A stretch of 64,000 bases of DNA from Prorocentrum cordatum. Lineage: Eukaryota; Sar; Dinophyceae; Prorocentrales; Prorocentraceae. Each line of letters starts with the position of its first letter. Positions within the stretch are counted from its first letter, which is position 1. Shown piece by piece: positions 3,510 to 64,000 of this stretch. Where the stretch lies: the NCBI GenBank assembly GCA_963575745.1, contig CAUYUJ010017871.1, forward strand, positions 603,045 to 667,044, read 5' to 3'. The position numbers and the translations under genes are program-made. Below the pieces are notes generated by a model. That model made no database searches and had not been told where the DNA came from. It saw nothing but the letters and a program-made list of their open reading frames with translations.

Positions 3510-4252
3510 CACCTCCCCCGCGCCCTCCTCCTGCTCCTCCTCCTCCTCCTCCTCCTTCTCCTCCTCCTGCTGCTGCTCCTCCTGCTGCTCCTTCTCCTCC
3601 TCCACCTCCCCCTCGCCCTCCTGCTCGTCGTCCTCCTCCTCCTTCTCCTGCTGCTCTTCCTCCTCCTTCTCCTGCTCCTGCTCCTGCTCCTGCTGCTCCT
3701 GCTGCTCCTGCTGCTCCTGCTGCTCCTGCTGCTCCTCCTCCTCCTCCCTCCTCCTCCTCCTCCTCCTCCTCCTCCTCCTCCTCCTCCTCCTCCTCCATGT
3801 ATTAATCCTTATCCTCCTTCTCCTTCTCCCAGCCTCCTCCTTGTCTCTCCTCCCGCTCCTCCTCCTCCTCCCTCTCCTCCTCCTCCTCCTCCTCCTCCTC
3901 CTCCTCCTCCTCTTCCTCCTCCTCCCTCCTCCTCCTCCTCCTCCTCCTCCCACTCCTCCTCTCCTCCTCCTCCTCCTCCTCCTCCTCCTCCTCCTCCTTC
4001 TCCTCCCCCTCCCCCTCCCCCTCCCCCTCCCCCTCCCCCTGTTTCTCCTCCTCCTCCTCCCCTCCTCCTCCTCCTCCTCCTCCTCCTCTTCCTCTTCCGC
4101 CCCCTCCTCCTCCCACTCTTCCTCCTCCTACTCTTCCTCCTCCTCCTCCTGCTCATCCTGCTTCTCCTGCCCATCCCCCTGCTCTTCCTCCTCCTTCTCC
4201 TTCTCCTCCTCCTCCTCCTTCTCCTCCTCCTCCTCCTTCTCCTCCCCCATCG
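3510..4252. repeat. CTC/CTG microsatellite tract
   Basis: A pyrimidine-rich tract of (CTC)n with (CTGCTC)n around 3670-3740 and a short (CCCCTC)n block at about 4005-4040. It is open in many frames on both strands only because of its composition. Confidence 0.95.
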
Positions 4253-4259
4253 CCCCTGT

Positions 4260-5210
4260 GCGTGTACAAGGCTGCCGCTAGTGGCTCTCGTGCTCCTGAC
4301 GTGGGGGTAACCCGTATCTCCCCTGGTCCTTCCCAGGCCAATCCTCATTGGACTCTTGCGGAGCGCCGCCGCTGCCGCCTCCTCCCCCCCCTGAGCCCTG
4401 AGATCCTGACGCACAGTCGAGCTACTACCCGAAGGAACGCGGGATAAGGAACGAAATCCCGTTTGAGTCCCGAAAGCGCCCGGGTGCACGAGGAACGCCA
4501 GAGGAACAGCCCTGGAAGGACCGAAGGAACAGCGAGGCCATTTCGAACCCGAGCCGATCCTTAATTTCAGCGTCTTGACTGCACCAATGTTCATCACATA
4601 TCGACCTGGCTCAACAAAGTGCAACAGAAAGACGGGGTCTGGGGCTGGGGCCTCGGTCGCGTCCGTTCGCGATGTCGCAACTTCCTCTCGCAACGTCGGA
4701 TTTCAGGGCCTCCCTCCCTCCCTCCCTTCCCCTCCCCGGACCGCTCGCGTCGTGGAGAAAACGAGCAACGGCGGACGGCTCTCTCTCTCTGCTTTGCTGC
4801 TGCAGCCTCCTGCCCTCTGAGGGCCCTCGCCCGGCCCAGGGACAGTTAGACGCGGCTCGGGACGAAGCGCCCGTCTGAAGGGCCGGGTCGCGACCTCCGG
4901 GGGGCCCACGCCGTGGAACAGAGCACGACCCCGGGGGGCCTGGGCTCCCCACGGCCTCTTCCCCCCAGGCGAGTGGGGCTGGCGCGTCGACGGCGCGGAG
5001 CGGCAGCGCGCCCTCCGCACCGCCGCCTCTCCCCCCCTTCCCTCCACACGTCTCCCAGGTCGCGGGGACGTCCTCTGCTGCACGGACTCCAAGCCCGCCC
5101 GACCTGCAGGCGCGCTGGGACGCCGTAGGCGCGCCCTTCCAACGAGAGGTACCGCATCCACTTCACTCCGTGAGGGCCCCAGAATGCCAGAGACAGAGAG
5201 GGAGACACAT
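4260..5210. other. No gene recognised
   Basis: GC-rich sequence between two repeat regions. A minus-strand fragment of the dispersed GGTCTCGACC repeat lies at about 4858-4925. The open frames are short and compositionally biased, and no domain, splice pattern or RNA gene was recognised. Confidence 0.5.
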
Positions 5211-5213
5211 GTG

Positions 5214-5312
5214 TACAATTCATATACACGTATAATATGTATACACATCTATAGAAGCATAAACCTATACACACGTACGTTGGTACATATACATATATCT
5301 TTTTGGTACGTG
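5214..5312. repeat. TA/CA-rich simple sequence
   Basis: Alternating purine-pyrimidine sequence rich in ACATATA and GTATAC words, in sharp contrast to the GC-rich flank. Similar tracts occur at 9244-9380, 14889-14920, 17055-17100 and 18671-18730, always at edges of satellite units. Confidence 0.8.
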
Positions 5313-5379
5313 TACATATATGCATTCATGTGAGCTTTTGTGTGTCAGCCAGCGTGGACCACAACTAGGTGTATTATAG

Positions 5380-5600
5380 CATACTACATGGTGAATCCTG
5401 AGTGGTGCGTCTACGAGGAGCAATTGCGAAGTGCAAGCTATGTGGTGCAATCTATGTGGCGTAAGCAACGTGGTGCAATATCGGTGGTGCACCCCATGTG
5501 GCGTCATCTATGTGGTGCAATCTGTTCGGCGTAAGCTATGTACAGCAAAATATGTGGCGTGAGCTACGTGGTGCAATGTGTGGTGCAATCTATGCGGTGC
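5380..5600. repeat. Degenerate GTGGTGCAATCTAT tandem repeat
   Basis: About 14-bp words such as GTGGTGCAATCTAT, GTGGCGTAAGCTA and GTGGTGCAATCTGT are repeated head to tail. Homologous runs lie at 14080-14215 and 16990-17130, each time immediately left of a large satellite unit starting near 'tcttacaaacatc'. Confidence 0.8.
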
Positions 5601-5621
5601 CAAATTGATTTTTACCCATGG

Positions 5622-6885
5622 TGTGACACATCCCGTGCTTTTGCAAACATCCCACCCACCCACCCGCAACTTGGTTTGCAAAACCTCTAAAGACCGACTG
5701 CGACGACACCGACGACAACGACTACGACGACACCGACGACGTCTCCGACGACTTCGACAACGACAACGACGCCGACGCCGACGACGACGAAGACGACGCC
5801 AAACGACGACGAGGGAGGAGGAAGGACGACGACGGCGACAACGACGACAATGAAGACAACGACGAGGGAGGAGGGAGGACGGCGACGACGCGAACGACGA
5901 AGAAGGAGGAACGACGGCGACGCCGACGACGACAACGACGAGGGAGGAGGGAAGATGACGACGACAACGACGACGACGACGACGGCGACGAAATAGGAGG
6001 GACGACGACGAGACGCCGACGACGGACGACGACGACGACGAGGGAGGAGGAGGAAGGACGACCACGGCGACAACGACGACGGAAACGACCACGACGCCAA
6101 AGAGGACGACGACGACGAACACGAGGAAAGACAGAGGACGACGTAGGCGACGACGACGACGACGCGGGAGGAGGGAGGACGGCGACGACGACGACGACGG
6201 CGACGCAAGAGCGCGCGCGCACGCTTTTGACGAACATCTGTGTTGCGAAACCTTGTGTTTTCGTCAGTTTTTTGGACACACGATTTTGAAATCCTTCCGA
6301 AACCGATGGGTTTTGAAGGTTTTCGGCATACGCGCGCGACGACGCGCGCGTCTGCACTTCGTCTTATGTTTAGCAAAGGATTCTCGCGACGGCACACGCG
6401 CAAGGCCGTTCGACAGATTTCGACATGCGCGCGCGCGAAGCCCGTCTGGTAGCATGTTGTGACAATCTTGAAAAACCCATGGTTTTCTTAAGATTTCGCA
6501 CGAGCCCGCGCGGAAGCTTGTTTAGCAAATCAGTGTTGCAAAACCATGTGTTTTTGTATGTTGTTTGGAAGCTCGATTGCGATATGCTTCCAGCACCGAA
6601 AGTTTTTGGAGGATTTCGGCATGCGCGCGCGACGACGCGCGCGTGTGCACTTCGTCCAGTTTTTTGCAAGGGATTCGTGACAAAGTGTTATGTTAGAACT
6701 ACAAATGTCGCCGCGTAGTGTTTTTTTTACAAGGGAACCTCAGGGGGGGGATACTGGCCCCCCGGGGATAATGTACATTCATATTTAGGATGGACATGTG
6801 GTCATAATCATATATGATTTACATACCCGAAAGGGTGACCGATAACTCCGGGGGGGGGGTAGATCCTAATTTGTCTTCAGTGATT
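5622..6885 (+). repeat. Large satellite unit, copy 1
   Basis: Starts 'gtgtgacacatccc', runs through 'cacccacccacccgcaactt', an interrupted (GAC)n tract, several hairpin words of the type CGCGCGACGACGCGCGCG followed by 'tgcacttcgtc', and ends with 'aactccggggggggggtaga'. It is closely repeated at 6886-8412, which makes a tandem duplication of about 1.3-1.5 kb. Related, more diverged copies are at 8413-8760 (partial), 14215-15365, 15366-16395, 16396-17130 (truncated) and 17145-18345. No gene was recognised inside. Confidence 0.85.
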
Positions 6886-8412
6886 CCTACCCATGATGCG
6901 ACACATCCCACGCTCTTGCAAACATCCCACCCACCCACCCGCAACTTGGTTTGCAAAACCTTTTAAGACCGACTACGACGACATCGACATCGACTACGAC
7001 GACACCGACGACGTCTCCGACGACTTCGACGACGACAACGACGCCGACGCCGACGACGACGACGACGCCGACGAAGACGACGACGAGGGAGGAGGAAGGA
7101 CGACGACGGCGATAACGACGACAACGACAACAACGACGAGGGAGGAGGGAGGACGGCGACGACGCGAACGACGCGAACGACGAAGAAGGAGGAACGACGG
7201 CGACGCCGACGACGACAACGACGAGGAAGGAGGGAAGACGACGACGACGACATCGACGACGACGACGACGGCGACGAAATAGGAGGGACGACGACGAGAC
7301 GCCGACGACGGACGACGACGACGACGAGGGAGGAGGAGGAAGGACGACCACGGCGACAACGACGACGGAAACGACCACGACGCCAAAGAGGACGACGACG
7401 ACGAACACGAGGAAAGACAGAGGACGACGTAGGCGACGACGACGACGACGACGCGGGAGGAGGGAGGACGGCGACGACGACGATGACGACGACGACGGCG
7501 ACGCAAGAGCGCGCGCGCACGCTTTTGTTGAAAACCTGTGTTGCGCAACCCCGTGTTTTTTGTAGGTTTTTTGGACACACGATTTTGAAATCCTTCCGAA
7601 ACCGATGGGTTTTGAATGTGTTCGGCATACGCGGGCGACGATGCGCGCGTCTGCACTTCATCCTGTTTTTTTCAGAGGATTCCCGCGACGGCACACGCGC
7701 AAGGGCGTTCGACAGATTTCGACATGCGCGCGCGCGAAGCCCGTTTAGTAGCATGTTGCGAAAATTTTGAAAAATCTATGGATTTCGCCCTGAAGATTTT
7801 TAGCAAATCAGTGTTACGAAACCCTGTGATTTTGTATGTTGTTTTGGAAGCTCGATTGCGAAATGCTTCCGGCACCGAAAGTTTTTGAAGGATTTCGGGA
7901 TGCGCGCGCGACGACGCGCGCGTGTGCACTTCGTCTCATTTTTTGCACAGGATTCTCGCGACGGCACACGCGCAAGGCCGTTCGACAGATTTCGACATGC
8001 GCGCGTGCGAGGCCCGTTTAGCAGAATGTTGCGAAAATCTTGAAAAACCTATGGTTTTCTTAAGATTTCGCACGAGCTCGCGCGGAAGATTTTTTAGCAC
8101 ATCAGTGTTGCGAAACACAAGGCGCCGAAGGTTTTTGGAGGATTTCGGCATGCGCGCGCGACGACGCGAGCATGTGCACTTCGTCCCGTTTTTTGCAAGG
8201 GATTCGTGACAAAGTGTTATGTTAGAACTACAAATATCACCGCATAGTGTTTTCTACCATGGAACCTCAGGGGGGGATACCGGCCGCACGGGGATAATGT
8301 AAATTCATATTTAGGATGGACATGTGGTCATAATCATATATGATTTACATACCCGAAAGGGGTACCGATAACTCCGGGGGGGGGGTAGATCCTATTCTGT
8401 TTTTAGAACAGA
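6886..8412 (+). repeat. Large satellite unit, copy 2
   Basis: Near-identical to copy 1 over the GAC-rich half and the hairpin-rich half, but with an extra internal repeat of the 'ttcgacatgcgcgcg' segment (about 7720-8200), which makes it some 250 bp longer. It ends with the same 'gataactccggggggggggt' signature. Confidence 0.85.
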
Positions 8413-8760
8413 GAATTCACTTGTGGAGCTCGCAGTTGCCAACTTCACTGGTCGCGCAACCATCTCACCCGCCCACCCGAAACTTGTTTTGCAAAACACA
8501 AAGCGGCGGCGACTGGCACGAGTGCTTGGCGTTGGCTGGTGCGCCTCTGCGGCCGCGCCAGCGGCCGCGCCAGCCCGCGCATGCACTTGCGCGCGGCGAC
8601 GGGTGGGGGTCGATACCGGTTCCCCTGGGATGGTACGAGTTCAAATTTAGGATGAACGATGGGGCAGAACCATATGCAAGCTGCAATTTCAATGGGGGAA
8701 AGGGGTACGGATAATACCCGAGGGGGGTAATCTACTCCCTTTAAAGAAGGGAAGGGTGTA
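8413..8760 (+). repeat. Large satellite unit, truncated copy 3
   Basis: Contains the unit start ('cacccgcccacccgaaactt', 'tgcaaaacac') and the unit end ('gataccggttcccctggga', 'atgggg', 'taatctactccctttaaaga') but lacks the long middle part with hairpins and GAC tract. Confidence 0.7.
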
Positions 8761-8784
8761 TGTGGTGGAAACGATGTGGTGCAT

Positions 8785-9240
8785 ACAAAGCAATGCAAAT
8801 CAAAGTCAAACGGCGCAAAGCAACGAACAGACAACAATGCAAATCAATATAGCGCAACGCGCGATAACTCAAACCAGCGCAAAGTAATGCAACGCAGTGC
8901 GAAGCAACTCGGAGCAATGCCAAATAATGCCACGCAGTGCCAGGCAATGCGAAGCAATGCGAAGAAAGGCAAACGAGAGGCGACGAGGAGCAGGGCGGCG
9001 ACGAGGCGGCGACGGCGGCGACATGGCGGCCAAGGTGCCCGCAGGTCCAGGCGACGGGCGGCGACGGGGCGGCGACTGCGAAAACATAGCCGTCAGGCTG
9101 GCACTCAAGCCGAGACGACAGGCAGCGACTAAGCAGCAAATGGGCGGCGACGGCGACGTGGCCGCCAGACCGACCTCCAGGTCCAGTTCCTTGTTCCACA
9201 AGTAAATACCCGTAAATGCAAACACTGATTGGGGAATGCG
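8785..9240. repeat. GCAATGCAAA-type and GGCGGCGAC-type tandem repeats
   Basis: 8785-8965 is a degenerate run of words like GCAATGC and AAGCAATGCGAAG. 8970-9200 is a run of GGCGGCGAC and CGACGGGGCGGCGAC words. The second part has a homologue at 18365-18660, ending in both cases near 'cagttccttg' or 'caattccttggg'. The GCAATGC words recur within the gene spacers at 19930-20060, 20270-20400, 22760-22850 and 25080-25230. Confidence 0.75.
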
Positions 9241-20982: not shown

Positions 20983-21208
20983 AGAAGAGGTAGAAGAAGA
21001 AAAACAAATTGTAAACTTTTGTTGGCGCTCCGCGCGGATTTCTTGAATCCGCTCTGGACCCCTCTCCCCTGCTCGCGGAGCGCGCCAGGGGCGGCGCCGG
21101 AGGCACCGCCGGGGGGCCCCAGCGCGGATCCAAGAAATCCGCGCGGAGGGCCAAAGTAATATGTTTATGGCGTTTTTGTATGTTGTTGTTGTTTCTTCTT
21201 CTTTCGAA
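20983..21208. mobile_element. Foldback element, CCGCGCGGATTTCTTGGATC family, copy A, with flanking direct repeats
   Basis: The core inverted repeat pairs 'ctccgcgcggatttcttg' on the left (from about 21028) with 'caagaaatccgcgcggag' on the right (to about 21148). The middle (ctcgcggagcgcgccagggg / ggcaccgccggggggcccc) can also fold. The whole unit is flanked by 18-bp direct repeats, GCACACATTCTCATAGGT at 20965 and GCACGCATTCTCATAGGT at 21209, one mismatch, which look like a target-site duplication. Four more family members are in this window. Confidence 0.75.
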
Positions 21209-40876: not shown

Positions 40877-41152
40877 CCCCCCCGCCCTCCCTCCCTTCCT
40901 CCTGTGCTCCCCCCCGCTCTCTCTCCCTCCGCGCTCCCCCCCCCCCCGCCCCCCAGCAGGGCCTGGTTCGGCAGGGGCCCCCCGGCGAGAGCCGCTCTGC
41001 TGGAGGCCGCCGCGCTTGGCCGACGCCGCGCTTCGCCGGGCTGTGTGAGGCGCTCCGCCGCACTTTGCCGACGCCGCGGAAGGGTACGGTCGAGCGGAGC
41101 AATCTACAAATTACAGTAGGGCAACGAACAATTACATAAACATAAAAACTCA

Positions 41153-41283
41153 AAGGTCCGCGCGGATTTCTCGGGTCGGCGCTCGACCCCCCTCCCTGGC
41201 GCGCGGAGCGCGCCAGGGCCGGCGCCAGAGGCGCCGCCAGGGGGCCCTAGCGCCGATCCAAGAAATCCGCGCGGACCTCCGAG
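41153..41283. mobile_element. Foldback element, copy B
   Basis: Left arm AAGGTCCGCGCGGATTTCTC pairs with right arm GAAATCCGCGCGGACCT. The GC-rich middle 'ggcgcgcggagcgcgcc' and 'ggcgccagaggcgccgcc' is itself palindromic. The left flank 'cataaacataaaaactc' matches the flank of copy E, so the true element is longer than the core hairpin. It directly abuts a TTAGGTCGGGC-family element. Confidence 0.75.
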
Positions 41284-41286
41284 TTC

Positions 41287-41442
41287 TTCGGGCGTGTCCT
41301 CCTACAGGCGGCTTTTGGACGGATTTTTTAAAAGTCCAATGTAGGAGAAAAAACAAAACCAAACAAAAAATTCAAAAAAGTCCCCCGACTATGCTCTACT
41401 ATGCTTGTACATTCCTTCTGTAAAGGGACAGGCCCGACTTTA
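41287..41442. mobile_element. TTAGGTCGGGC-family element, copy 4
   Basis: Left end 'cgggcgtgtcctcctacagg' (outermost bases diverged), right end 'cttctgtaaagggacaggcc' + CGACTT. The interior is AT-rich. Confidence 0.65.
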
Positions 41443-44725: not shown

Positions 44726-44844
44726 CGATGAAGCGCGACCCTCCGACCCCATCTACTCTCTGCTCATCTACTCAGACCCCATCTAGAAGCCCTAGAGATA
44801 CCACTACTCGAGAGAAACAGAAAGCGGCACTAACAAACTTTCTG

Positions 44845-44960
44845 AGGTCCGCTCGGATTTCTTGGATCGGCGCTGGACCCCCCTCCCTGGCGCGCGGAGC
44901 GGTGCCGGAGGTTCCGCAAGAGGGGCCCAACGCCGATCCAAGGAATCCGCGAGGACCTTG
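44845..44960. mobile_element. Foldback element, copy C
   Basis: Left arm AGGTCCGCTCGGATTTCTTG + GATCGGCG pairs with right arm CGCCGATCCAAGGAATCCGC + GAGGACCT. The middle ('ccctccctggcgcgcggagc') matches copies B and D. Confidence 0.75.
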
Positions 44961-45099
44961 GAGAATTGGTGTTCGTGCCGCTTCCTGCTCTTGGATACTC
45001 CCCAGACCTCTCCCAGGGTTCGTTCTGACCAGGACTCACGAGCGGCGAACACATCCGTATAAAGGCCTCCTAGATGGGGTCGGAGTAGATGTGGTCGGA

Positions 45100-50614: not shown

Positions 50615-50790
50615 TGACATGACCATAAAAACTCGGAGGTCCGCGCGGACTTCTCGGATCGGCACTGGAGCCCCCTGGCGGCGCCTCCTGCGCCGCCCCA
50701 TGGCGCGCTGCGCGCGCCAAGGGGAGGGGTCAAACGCCGATCCGAGAAATCCGCGCGGACCTCTTAGTTGTTGTGTGCATGTGTTCTTTG
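50615..50790. mobile_element. Foldback element, copy E
   Basis: Core arms GGTCCGCGCGGACTTCTCGG + ATCGGC and GCCGATCCGAGAAATCCGCG + CGGACC. The outer arms 'acatgaccataaaaactcgg' and the inverse of 'cttagttgttgtgtgcatgt' extend the inverted repeat to roughly 50 bp in total. The middle 'ccctggcggcgcctcctgcg' + 'ccatggcgcg' differs in orientation from copies B-D. Confidence 0.75.
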
Positions 50791-60892: not shown

Positions 60893-61495
60893 GCCCTCCT
60901 CCTCCTCCTCCTCCTCCTCCTCCTCCTCCTCCTCCTCCTCCTCCTCCTCCTCCTCCTCCTCCTCCTCCTCCTCCTCCTCCTCCTCCTCCTCCTCCTCCTC
61001 CTCCTCCTCCTCCTCCTCCTCCTCCTCCTCCTCCTCCTCCTCCTCCTCCTCCTCCTCCTCCTCCTCCTCCTCCTCCTCCTCCTCTCTCTCCTCCTCCTCC
61101 TCCTCCTCCTCCTCCTCCTCCTCCTCCTCCTCCTCCTCCTCCTCCCCTCCTCCTCCTCCTCCTCCTCCTCCTCCTCCTCCTCCTCCTCCTCCTCCTCCCC
61201 TCCTCCTCCTCCTCCTCCTCCTCCCGCCCCTCCTCCTCCTCTTCCTCGTTCTCCTCCTTCTCCTCCCTCCCCCTCGTCTTCCTCCTCCTCCTCCTCCTCC
61301 TCCCTCCTCCTCCTCCTCCCGCCCCTCCTCCTCCTCCTTCTCCTCCTCCTCCCCCTTCTCCTTCTCCTCTCTCCTCCTCTTCCTCCTCCTCCTCCTCCTC
61401 CCCGCCCCTCCTCCTCCTCCGCCTTCACCTCCATCTCTCCTCCTCCTCCTCCTCCTCCTCCTCCTCCTCCTCCTCCTCCTCGTCCTCCCCCTCCC
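60893..61495. repeat. (CTC)n microsatellite, very long
   Basis: About 600 bp. The first 190 bp (to 61083) are an uninterrupted (CTC)n run; later parts have CTCTCTC and CCCCTC interruptions. This is the longest pure trinucleotide run in the window. Confidence 0.98.
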
Positions 61496-61709
61496 TCAGG
61501 GATCGAATCTCGCCGCCGACCAGCCTGGCAGAGACGCCAGGAAGTCCAGGAGGGCGGACGGCAGCGCCGTGGCGATGCGGACTGCGCTCGAGCAGGCCAG
61601 GCGCGCCCTGCTGCTCGAGGGGGCCCCCTCGGCCGCCTGGCTTTCTTTGCGGGCCCTGCCGTAGGTGGCCACCTGGACGACGAAAACAAACGGGGCGATC
61701 GTTAGATGT

Positions 61710-61905
61710 TGGCGGCGAGCGAGGCGTGGGGAGTTTCGGGTTCGAAGTTCGAATTCGAGATTTTTAGCTTCTTGGCGGTCTGCCGCCCTCGGGATGCGTT
61801 CCAGCGGCTGCGCCTCGCCAAGAGCGTTTCGGAGATGCCCAGATCGTCCCGAACGGCCGCCTCAGACCCGAGGTATGAACCGAAAACTGAACTCGGCGGC
61901 GAGCG
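61710..61905 (+). repeat. Dispersed ~200-bp repeat, copy 2
   Basis: Counterpart of 44326-44530, beginning TTGGCGGCGAGCGAGG and ending CGAAAACTGAACTCGG, then running straight into the TIR element at 61893, whose left end is again GGCGGCGAGCGAGG. Confidence 0.8.
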
Positions 61906-62093
61906 AGGGGGGAACTGAGAAGGAGGAAGCCTTCTCGGAAGGCGGCGGGACTTCTCAGAAACCCTCGCGCCGTCTGAGAAGTCTTCCGTGTCTGCGGTGA
62001 AGGCTTCGACAACTTCTCTCTGAAGGCGGGGGGGGCTTCCCAGCCTTCTGATGAGGCCATCTCCTTCTCGCTTCCCCCCCCGCTCGCCGCCGA
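61893..62093. mobile_element. 201-bp TIR element (TCGGCGGCGAGCG)
   Basis: Left end TCGGCGGCGAGCGAGGGGGG + AACTGAGAAGGAG; right end, inverted, TCGGCGGCGAGCGGGGGGGG + AAGCGAGAAGGAG. That is about 35 bp with three mismatches. The interior has further CTTCTC/GAGAAG inverted words. Non-coding, MITE-like, inside intron 2. Confidence 0.8.
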
Positions 62094-62231
62094 CGGTGGC
62101 ATGGTGACCTTACGCGGTGGCTTACGCGGGCCGCCAGCCCGGTACGCCACACTGCAGACGAGGGGCGCTGACGCCCGACCTCACGCGCCCATGTCGGCAT
62201 AGGCGCCCCCATTTTCTTGTGCGTCGCTCAC

Positions 62232-63245
62232 CTGGGAGACGTTCACGGGGATCGCCCGCAGCTGGTCGCAGGTCCTGTCCACGAACACGACCCTGGAGGA
62301 GCCGGGCATGACCATGCCGATCACCTGCTCAGTGTAGAACCAGCCGCGGAGCTTGTAGACGACGTAGGCCGGGACGGCCAGCAGGCCCAGCAGCACGGAG
62401 AAGCCCCAAGTCGTCTCCAGGAAATTGGCGACGACGAACCTGGGCGTGGCGGAGTAGTCCGGGATGCAGCAGACGAGCGCGAGCGTCGCCCCCCTGAAGG
62501 CCAGCGGCAGCACCAGGACGTTGAAGGCCCGGAGCTCCCAGGCGCCCATCCACAGGCCGTGGGGCAGGCTCTCGGCGGAGCCCGAGCCGTTGCGGAGCAC
62601 GTGCCTGCCCACGGCCAGGGCGTGGAGCACGACCACCGCCAGGAAGGCGTAGGCCACCGTCGAGACCATCTCGACGGGGGGCAGCGGCCTCGCGAAGGCC
62701 TCCAGCCGCACGGGAGGCTCCGCGATCTGCCTGCCGATGATGGCAAGCAGCTGCATCGAGGCGACGGCTGCGGAGAGGGTGGGCAGCCCAGCGAGCGTTG
62801 GCGCCGGCAGCCCGAAGGCCTGCATGGCCATCACCAAAAAGTACATCCCGACAGAGGCGAGCCCGAGCAGCGACAGGTTGCTCCCTAGGGCTTCCCACTG
62901 GCCTGGCGAAATGTTGGAGGCGTCCCACGGCATGCGCGTCTGACCCACGACTAGGCCAATCTGATACTCGACGTTGGACTCCTCCTCACTGCCCTCGGGG
63001 CCCTCGCCGACTGCGATCGTGAAGAATGAGTACCCGCGCTTCGAGGGGGCGTTGGTGGCCCAGCCGACCCAGGGCACGGCGGAACCGTCCTCCTGCAGCC
63101 GCCTCGTGCCGACATCCAGCGTGTTGCCGTCATTCTTCTCCTGCTGGATGCTCAGCGTCCTGCCGCCCTCTCCGGCCTTCGGCGAGCAGATGTCGCAGAG
63201 AACGAAAATCTTCACCTCCGCGCCCGGCTCCTTGTGTGCTGCACA
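62232..63245 (-). CDS. Multi-pass membrane protein, exon 2
   Basis: 338 codons on the minus strand between AG|TGTGCAGCAC (63246/63245) and CAG|GTGAGC (62232/62231). The first 110 residues are soluble: EVKIFVLCDICSPKAGEGG, then RGYSFFTIAVGEGPEGSEEE. About five hydrophobic segments follow: LSLLGLASVGMYFLVMAMQA, TLSAAVASMQLLAIIG, MVSTVAYAFLAVVVLHALAV, VLVLPLAFRGATLALVCCI and FSVLLGLLAVPAYVVYKL. A short soluble end (VIGMVMPGSSRVVFVDRTCD, then QLRAIPVNVSQ) closes the exon. Codon-periodic, low-repeat sequence supports real coding. Confidence 0.8.
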
Positions 63246-63400
63246 CTAGAATGACCACAGCCAAGAGTGACCTTTGGCGCGCGGCTTCAGGCGACCGCAG
63301 CAGGTGCCAAATCCAAGCAGTCCAAGCGCGCCAGCCAGTAGTGGTGGGACCCACGTGAGCCCGCGCCAAAGGTCATTCGGGCGAGTGGTCACTCTCACGC
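63246..63400 (-). mobile_element. Intron 1: 155-bp introner-like intron with terminal inverted repeats
   Basis: In gene sense the exon ends CGTTGC at 63401 and the intron runs from GCGTGAGAGTGACCAC (63400) to GGTCATTCTAG (63246). A GC donor with an AG acceptor keeps the frame; the nearby GT would not. The ends are inverted repeats. The first 38 bases after GCGTG (AGAGTGACCAC, then TGACCTTTGGCGCG) match the inverse of the last bases before AG (AGAATGACCAC, then TGACCTTTGGCGCGCGG) at about 31 of 38 positions. Inverted repeats touching both splice sites are the hallmark of introners, introns made by non-autonomous DNA transposons, known from dinoflagellates and their parasite Amoebophrya. Confidence 0.8.
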
Positions 63401-64000
63401 GCAACGGACCTTGGCCCTGCAGGCGAATCGCCGCACGCCGGGGTTCGACGCGTCCGGCTCGCAGTTGCCCTTGCTCGGGTCCATGAAGTTGAGCTCGAGG
63501 GCCCAGTCCTTCACCCTGGAGCTGGCCATGACCAGCGGGAGGTCTACTTGCTTGCCGCCTGCCTCCTCGATGCGGAGTCCCATCAGCTTGATGGGGTTGG
63601 GCGACACGGGCAGGCTGGACACGCCGTTCTCCAGGGGCCAGATCGCGTTGGTCTCGATGTTTGGCCTCAGGCCGATGCTCAAGCCCTCCCCGAAGCCAAA
63701 GTCGCCGCGCTCCGAGGGCTTCAGCGGAGGATCTGATTGCGCCCGCAGCCCTACATGGCCACCTCTCTTCGAGGGGAAGCACACGAGGTGGTCCTGCTCC
63801 ACAGACCACAAATTCATCTCCTTCAGGCCGCTCTCAAAGATACCCGGCACTTTATCGCAGTACCCGTCATTCGACTCCAGGAAGACCTTGCGGCTGCCCT
63901 TGTCCAGAATGACCTCCGCGCCGTCGTCAATCGGAGGCATTTCCGGCGCAACGTCCTCAGAAGTGGCGTTCTCGCCGCCATCGCCCTCACCGTCCGCCTC
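63401..64000 (-). CDS. Multi-pass membrane protein, exon 1 visible part (runs off window)
   Basis: 200 codons on the minus strand, entering from beyond 64000 and ending at CGTTGC (63401) before the introner. The sequence is soluble, probably luminal or extracellular: an acidic start (EADGEGDGGENATSEDVAPE), then VILDKGSRKVFLESNDGYCD, KEMNLWSVEQDHLVCFPSKR, FGEGLSIGLRPNIETNAIWP, and KDWALELNFMDPSKGNCEPD with scattered Cys. No family is recognised. The gene's 5' end is outside the window. Confidence 0.8.

Follow-up and report, generated by a model that had tools for sequence, protein, structure and literature searches.

A MITE-like element as the probable source of a new intron in a gene of Prorocentrum cordatum

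The window, the whole stretch of 64,000 nucleotides of Prorocentrum cordatum DNA analysed here, contains a gene on the minus strand that is interrupted by a short element with inverted repeats. Very probably, this MITE-like element was inserted at a CAAGG target and is spliced out as an intron at 63231-63409, by which the original codons would be restored. The observations behind this explanation are the element family, its ends, the 5-bp duplication, an empty site in a paralog, and the reading frames.

The element, its family, and the empty site

The predicted upstream exon of the host gene (63410..64000, minus strand) is stop-free and open up to the window end. The downstream exon (62232..63230, minus strand) is an open reading frame with hydrophobic stretches recognized by eye, and it ends in CCCAG/GTGAGC (a slash marks a junction) at a proposed next intron (61673..62231, minus strand; GTGAGC...TCCAG/G), the splice sites of which were read off the sequence. 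Taken together, the two exons (538 codons) show GC contents of 0.64/0.46/0.88 at the three codon positions. No homolog of the joined protein was found at an E value of ≤0.001 among 8000 candidates. Within the proposed next intron, away from its splice sites, lies an unrelated second inverted-repeat element (61893-62093, 51-nt arms, 82% complementary), and long CCT-type simple repeats adjoin the gene at 61000-61500.

The element itself spans 174 bp (63235..63408, minus strand; TCCGTTGCGCGTGAGAGTGACC...GGTCATTCTAGTGTGCAGCACA in gene orientation), its ends being set by the family alignment. It is flanked by two identical copies of CAAGG on the minus strand, the 5′ copy in gene orientation at 63409..63413 and the 3′ copy at 63230..63234. 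Against a 174-nt consensus of 21 related copies, the window copy aligned end to end with 0 gap columns and 32 substitutions in 174 positions (18.4%). The inverted repeats of the original prediction were indeed found, with 34-nt arms at 63248-63281 and 63362-63395 that are 79% complementary, and the strand 63403-63239 folds at −89.7 kcal/mol versus a shuffle mean of −64.0 kcal/mol (z of −6.5). Contrary to the original proposal, the arms do not coincide at their outer ends with the splice sites predicted there but form the inner part of the element, which extends to 63408 and 63235 in the alignment of genome copies. Since 107 inverted-repeat pairs were counted across the whole 64-kb window, such repeats alone are little proof, and family evidence was therefore needed. 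Within the window, two end patterns searched at ≤3 mismatches gave no second copy above chance, as had been predicted. Four other inverted-repeat units in the window (21022-21154, 41144-41288, 44833-44970, and 50617-50782) have arms that are alike by eye (GGATTTCT..GATCGGCGCTGGACCCC-like) and look like another short element family.

We then searched the assembly (4.13 Gb in 21,875 contigs). With the window copy as a query, 40 places, its own included, scored at an E value of ≤0.001 out of 882 candidates. The original prediction had suggested a genome search for the element's end and had regarded a lack of other copies as evidence against it; run with the 20-nt family end at ≤2 mismatches, this search yielded 8,643 hits (4322 + 4321) versus 22 (10 + 12) for the reversed control. 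The family may comprise very roughly 4,000-9,000 elements, a range given because a single element can be hit at both of its ends. Aligned copies from 20 fetched regions placed the family ends at TCGGCTACGCGTAAGAGTGACC... and ...GGTCACTCTTGCGTGCAGCCGA, 8 and 11 bases beyond the 155-nt intron originally predicted. In 52 deduplicated copies, the two flanks agreed at exactly five positions, with an identity of 0.56-0.69 versus 0.13-0.44 at same-lag neighbours, and these sequences are therefore a 5-bp target-site duplication. The family has two features of MITEs, namely, terminal inverted repeats (22 nt) and a target-site duplication of constant length (5 bp), and it exists as many dispersed similar copies, as introners do. 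Duplications of 5 bp are a trait of Transib elements, which provides a lead only for the superfamily. Identity reaches 98.4% between the closest pairs of the sample, and such near-identical copies suggest that the family moved recently, in which case strains could be polymorphic at insertion sites. The window copy looks older, its best full-length partner in the sample being only 79% identical.

To look for the uninterrupted site, a 600-nt query was made of the gene from which the element and one CAAGG had been taken out. A paralog (contig C15678, 672500-673099) matched positions 1-600 of this query over 600 bases at 85% identity with no extra length. The gene itself matched the joined query as two pieces, 1-301 and 297-600, and the overlap of the two halves corresponds to exactly the 5 duplicated bases of CAAGG (63230-63234). 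A 28-mer across the site hit the same place of the paralog, which reads CRAKDPGAE there, with two differences, both at third codon positions. The claim of an empty site rests on the 600-nt match, because the reversed control of the 28-mer also gave 1 hit; the paralog is known here from the match table and this one 28-mer. Gain of an intron relative to an intron-less relative, another hallmark of introners, is represented by this paralogous site, and the presence of the element and its duplication points to insertion in this gene rather than to precise loss in the paralog. The multicopy family, the inverted repeats, the 5-bp duplication, and the paralogous empty site together strongly support the original idea that the intron came from a MITE-like cut-and-paste element.

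Predicted splicing of the window copy

Most likely, the element gave rise to a new intron, excised exactly at the 5-base duplication produced by the insertion. According to the mechanism that we propose, a non-autonomous cut-and-paste element of ~174 bp, present in thousands of copies, would have inserted into an exon at CAAGG and duplicated these 5 bp, an event probably driven by a transposase. The target AAG/G would act as a proto-splice site: the left CAAGG plus the first base of the element would create the donor AAG/GT, and the right CAAGG the acceptor AAG/G. The original prediction had the element bring its own splice signals; in the model that we favour, the duplicated target would instead supply the AG acceptor and the donor G, and the element would contribute only the T of GT. 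The spliceosome would remove the element along with one target copy (63231-63409), restoring the codons ...CRAK/EPGAE....

The intron predicted from the sequence in this way is 179 nt in length (63231..63409, minus strand; AAG/GTCCGT...CACAAG/GAG, GT-AG), and its removal is length-neutral, in frame, and free of stops. The upstream exon ends with ...CRAK, and the downstream exon resumes with EPGAEVKIF.... Left unspliced, the 179 nt would break the frame, since they contain stops and 179 mod 3 is 2. We regard 63231-63409 as the best intron because the paralog matches, in length and at 85% identity, the gene minus the element and one CAAGG. Seven donor/acceptor pairs were tried, of which five keep the frame, and GT63409-AG63231 alone matches the length of the paralog, the other frame-keeping pairs adding 4-8 residues. 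A G follows the acceptor of this pair, and the upstream exon, like the intron, ends in AAG. In P. cordatum introns, PMC10666404 reports AG/G acceptors at 79.7% and GT, GC, and GA donors at 24.7, 51.4, and 23.8%. Two features speak against this pair, namely, that the AGs at 63246 and 63239 are nearer, lying upstream of the proposed acceptor, and that positions +3/+4 of the donor are weak by eye. Splicing at exactly 63409 and 63231 is what we infer from these comparisons.

The 155-nt GC-AG intron of the original prediction (63246..63400, minus strand) appears less likely. Its donor does keep the frame on the minus strand (GCGTG...AG, 63400...63246), a property that is not unique to it. The element ends lie farther out than these boundaries, and their use would leave VRCCAAHK, eight extra residues that are absent from the paralog. 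The donor GT63398 (GTGAGAG) was also rejected, giving seven stops with AG63246 and three stops plus a frame shift with AG63239.

Family copies in coding sequence

The frame and splice tests were applied to 147 loci. These yielded 122 copies for which the two ends were present (118 once duplicates had been removed), and no pair of ends was seen at 26 loci. A 100-copy set was obtained by subtracting the window copy and 17 copies selected for AGG targets; these 100 were drawn from the similarity list or from the first 100 places of the 8,643 end hits and lean to window-like or perfect-end copies. Coding potential was scored with general amino-acid frequencies and a GC3 bias of 0.86, close to the 0.88 of the window gene, and no fetched locus was used in training. 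Removal of the element plus 5 bp produced coding sequence on both sides in one frame for 12/118 copies, while removal of one base less or more did so for 1 and 1. The corresponding values for the 100-copy set were 10/100 versus 0 and 1, and per strand they were 15/236 versus 1 and 1. These counts indicated that some copies of the family, although a minority, are located within exons. The window copy had the best coding score of all 118.

Five of these 10 exonic copies (L004, L016, L052, L065, and L072) permitted length-neutral splicing on their coding strand and 0/10 on the opposite strand, versus 12/180 non-coding strands (Fisher P = 6e-4). A rule used for every copy moved the boundary of L072 by one base. 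When only duplications with ≤1 mismatch were considered, the figures were 5/7 versus 9/74 (P = 0.0013), and for exact duplications they were 4/6 versus 4/28 (P = 0.018). A null derived from exon positions (12.8-14.8%) gave a weaker enrichment, with binomial P values of 0.005-0.009 for 5/10. The splice enrichment was lost when the window gene was the sole training set of the codon model (P = 0.27-1), and a model trained partly on the flanks of L006, L016, and L052 gave 5/9 versus 12/182 (P = 3e-4), a result that is circular for L016 and L052. The remaining 5 of the 10 coding copies cannot be spliced in a length-neutral way: L091 (GCATG) and L124 (ACCAG) are clearly exonic with exact 5-bp duplications, and the duplications of L043, L071, and L128 are poor (2-3 mismatches), these three being uncertain cases. 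Six further loci checked apart from the 100 (L148-L153) showed both ends in 5/6 and coding sequence in 0.

The cleanest other case in the family is L086, a copy spotted by eye in translated flanks that has the target GCAGG on both sides. The gene encodes a class III nucleotide cyclase, and length-neutral removal of the element restores its domain: a nucleotide-cyclase domain (PF00211, E value of 6.7e-12) is recognized across the join HTGSIVAGVMQ/GKLPRFRLFGNTINTAARM, and of 29 PDB matches, the three with alignments shown are gap-free at the junction. This copy escaped the coding score because its left flank consists of N past the first 35 bases, and it stands outside the 5/10. Among 11 joined or flanking proteins compared with Pfam, none but L086 scored above the cut-off. 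In the AG/G length-neutral exon insertions, the donor is GT in L016 and L086 and GA in L052, L065, and L072.

Copies with AGG targets were mostly not exonic. There were 86 exact hits, of which 20 were fetched; both ends were found in 16, later 17, and 0/16 were coding at a score of ≥6, with one (L103) coding under the later model. L103 (target TTAGG/CTAGG) adjoins repeated coding-like units (LDNPVDLHAELHLPVRRLEGEES plus a near repeat).

We also asked how insertions are distributed. A family-wide excess in coding sequence was rejected: in a long-flank sample, 6/58 insertion sites were coding versus 29/226 control sites 750-1000 bp away (P = 0.82). An earlier version, based on the window-trained codon model with the window copy included and scores of ≥5 on both sides, gave 5/53 versus 15/104. 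On non-coding strands, AG/G targets were not above chance (12/180, or 9/74 with a well-kept duplication, versus 12.6% of flank positions). The lack of excess in both respects favours ordinary insertion followed by selection. Exon insertions would persist chiefly at duplicated targets with AG/G followed by T, C, or A; thus, AGG would be filtered by selection and not chosen at insertion. From targets outside exons showing no AG/G bias, and coding exons being neither preferred nor strongly avoided, one may tentatively suggest that this is an ordinary MITE, not specialised for exons, that becomes an intron wherever its 5-bp target supplies AG/G, and that the new introns could be survivors of a splice filter and not splice-adapted products.

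Alternative explanations and known introners

An unlikely alternative shares the same origin but has internal sites spliced, either GC63400-AG63246 or GC63402, GA63396, or GT63405 with AG63239, so that the protein would gain 4-8 residues. All four pairs are in frame, the family consensus end contains GTAAGAG (opposite strand, CTCTTACGCGTAG), and the exonic copies L091 and L124 offer no length-neutral option; yet the paralog stretch shows no extra length, neither internal acceptor (AG63246, AG63239) is followed by G, and GTGAGAG at GT63398 runs into the frame shift and stops already described when joined to AG63239. In L086, the extra residues from internal sites would land in the cyclase domain.

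It is very improbable that the element disrupted this gene copy, turning it into a pseudogene without any splicing. A paralog free of the element does exist, and the coding role of the window copy is a prediction from its sequence, but both exons are still open despite the distance of the element from its 21-copy consensus, and the strong third-position GC and the top coding score likewise speak against a pseudogene. Hardly credible is an old intron that was present first and was filled by the element later: the sampled elements are mostly outside coding exons (10/100 and 6/58 coding), whereas the one paralog found has no intron at this position and exon codons directly adjoin the duplication on either side.

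The origin of introns is a long-standing question. Here, one genome holds an intron, its duplication, thousands of sister-element hits (mostly non-exonic in the sample), and an uninterrupted paralog, so that one can ask whether introners are splice-adapted or splice-filtered elements.

Introners in dinoflagellates have already been published (PMC9860276, PMC7789003, PMC10666404, and PMC11453091). Among the papers listed by searches on introners, intron gain, or MITEs in dinoflagellates or Prorocentrum, none names the present family in its title or the printed start of its abstract. Dougan et al. (2023, PMC10666404) described introner elements in P. cordatum itself, likewise introns that carry inverted repeats together with direct repeats of 3-5 nt at their two ends; in the passages considered here they are defined by this repeat pattern, without a family, a consensus, or an empty site. 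Under the rule given there, an inverted repeat of 8-20 nt and a direct repeat of 3-5 nt lie no farther than 30 bases from the ends of the intron. The window intron carries the direct repeat, CAAGG occurring twice, and its longest exact inverted word is 7 nt within ≤30 bases of the ends, 8 within ≤40, and 14 within ≤60, counts of mismatch-free words only, whereas the rule may tolerate mismatches. For Polarella glacialis, thousands of introns from recent insertions of many families were reported (Roy et al. 2023, as summarised in PMC11453091).

Family 1 of Symbiodinium microadriaticum (Gozashti et al. 2022, PMC9860276, Fig. 2B), likewise from a dinoflagellate, also has inverted terminal repeats and a short duplication supplying a splice site. 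It differs in that its duplications are 4 bp and it brings its own 3′ splice site, whereas the 5-bp duplication of the window element would give the acceptor and the donor G. In the introners of Florenciella (PMC9860276, Fig. 2E), both splice sites are co-opted from the insertion site, as in our model, although this is a different organism that is likened here by description and not by sequence. The window element thus appears to behave like an introner, and its family would be a new one of a known kind.
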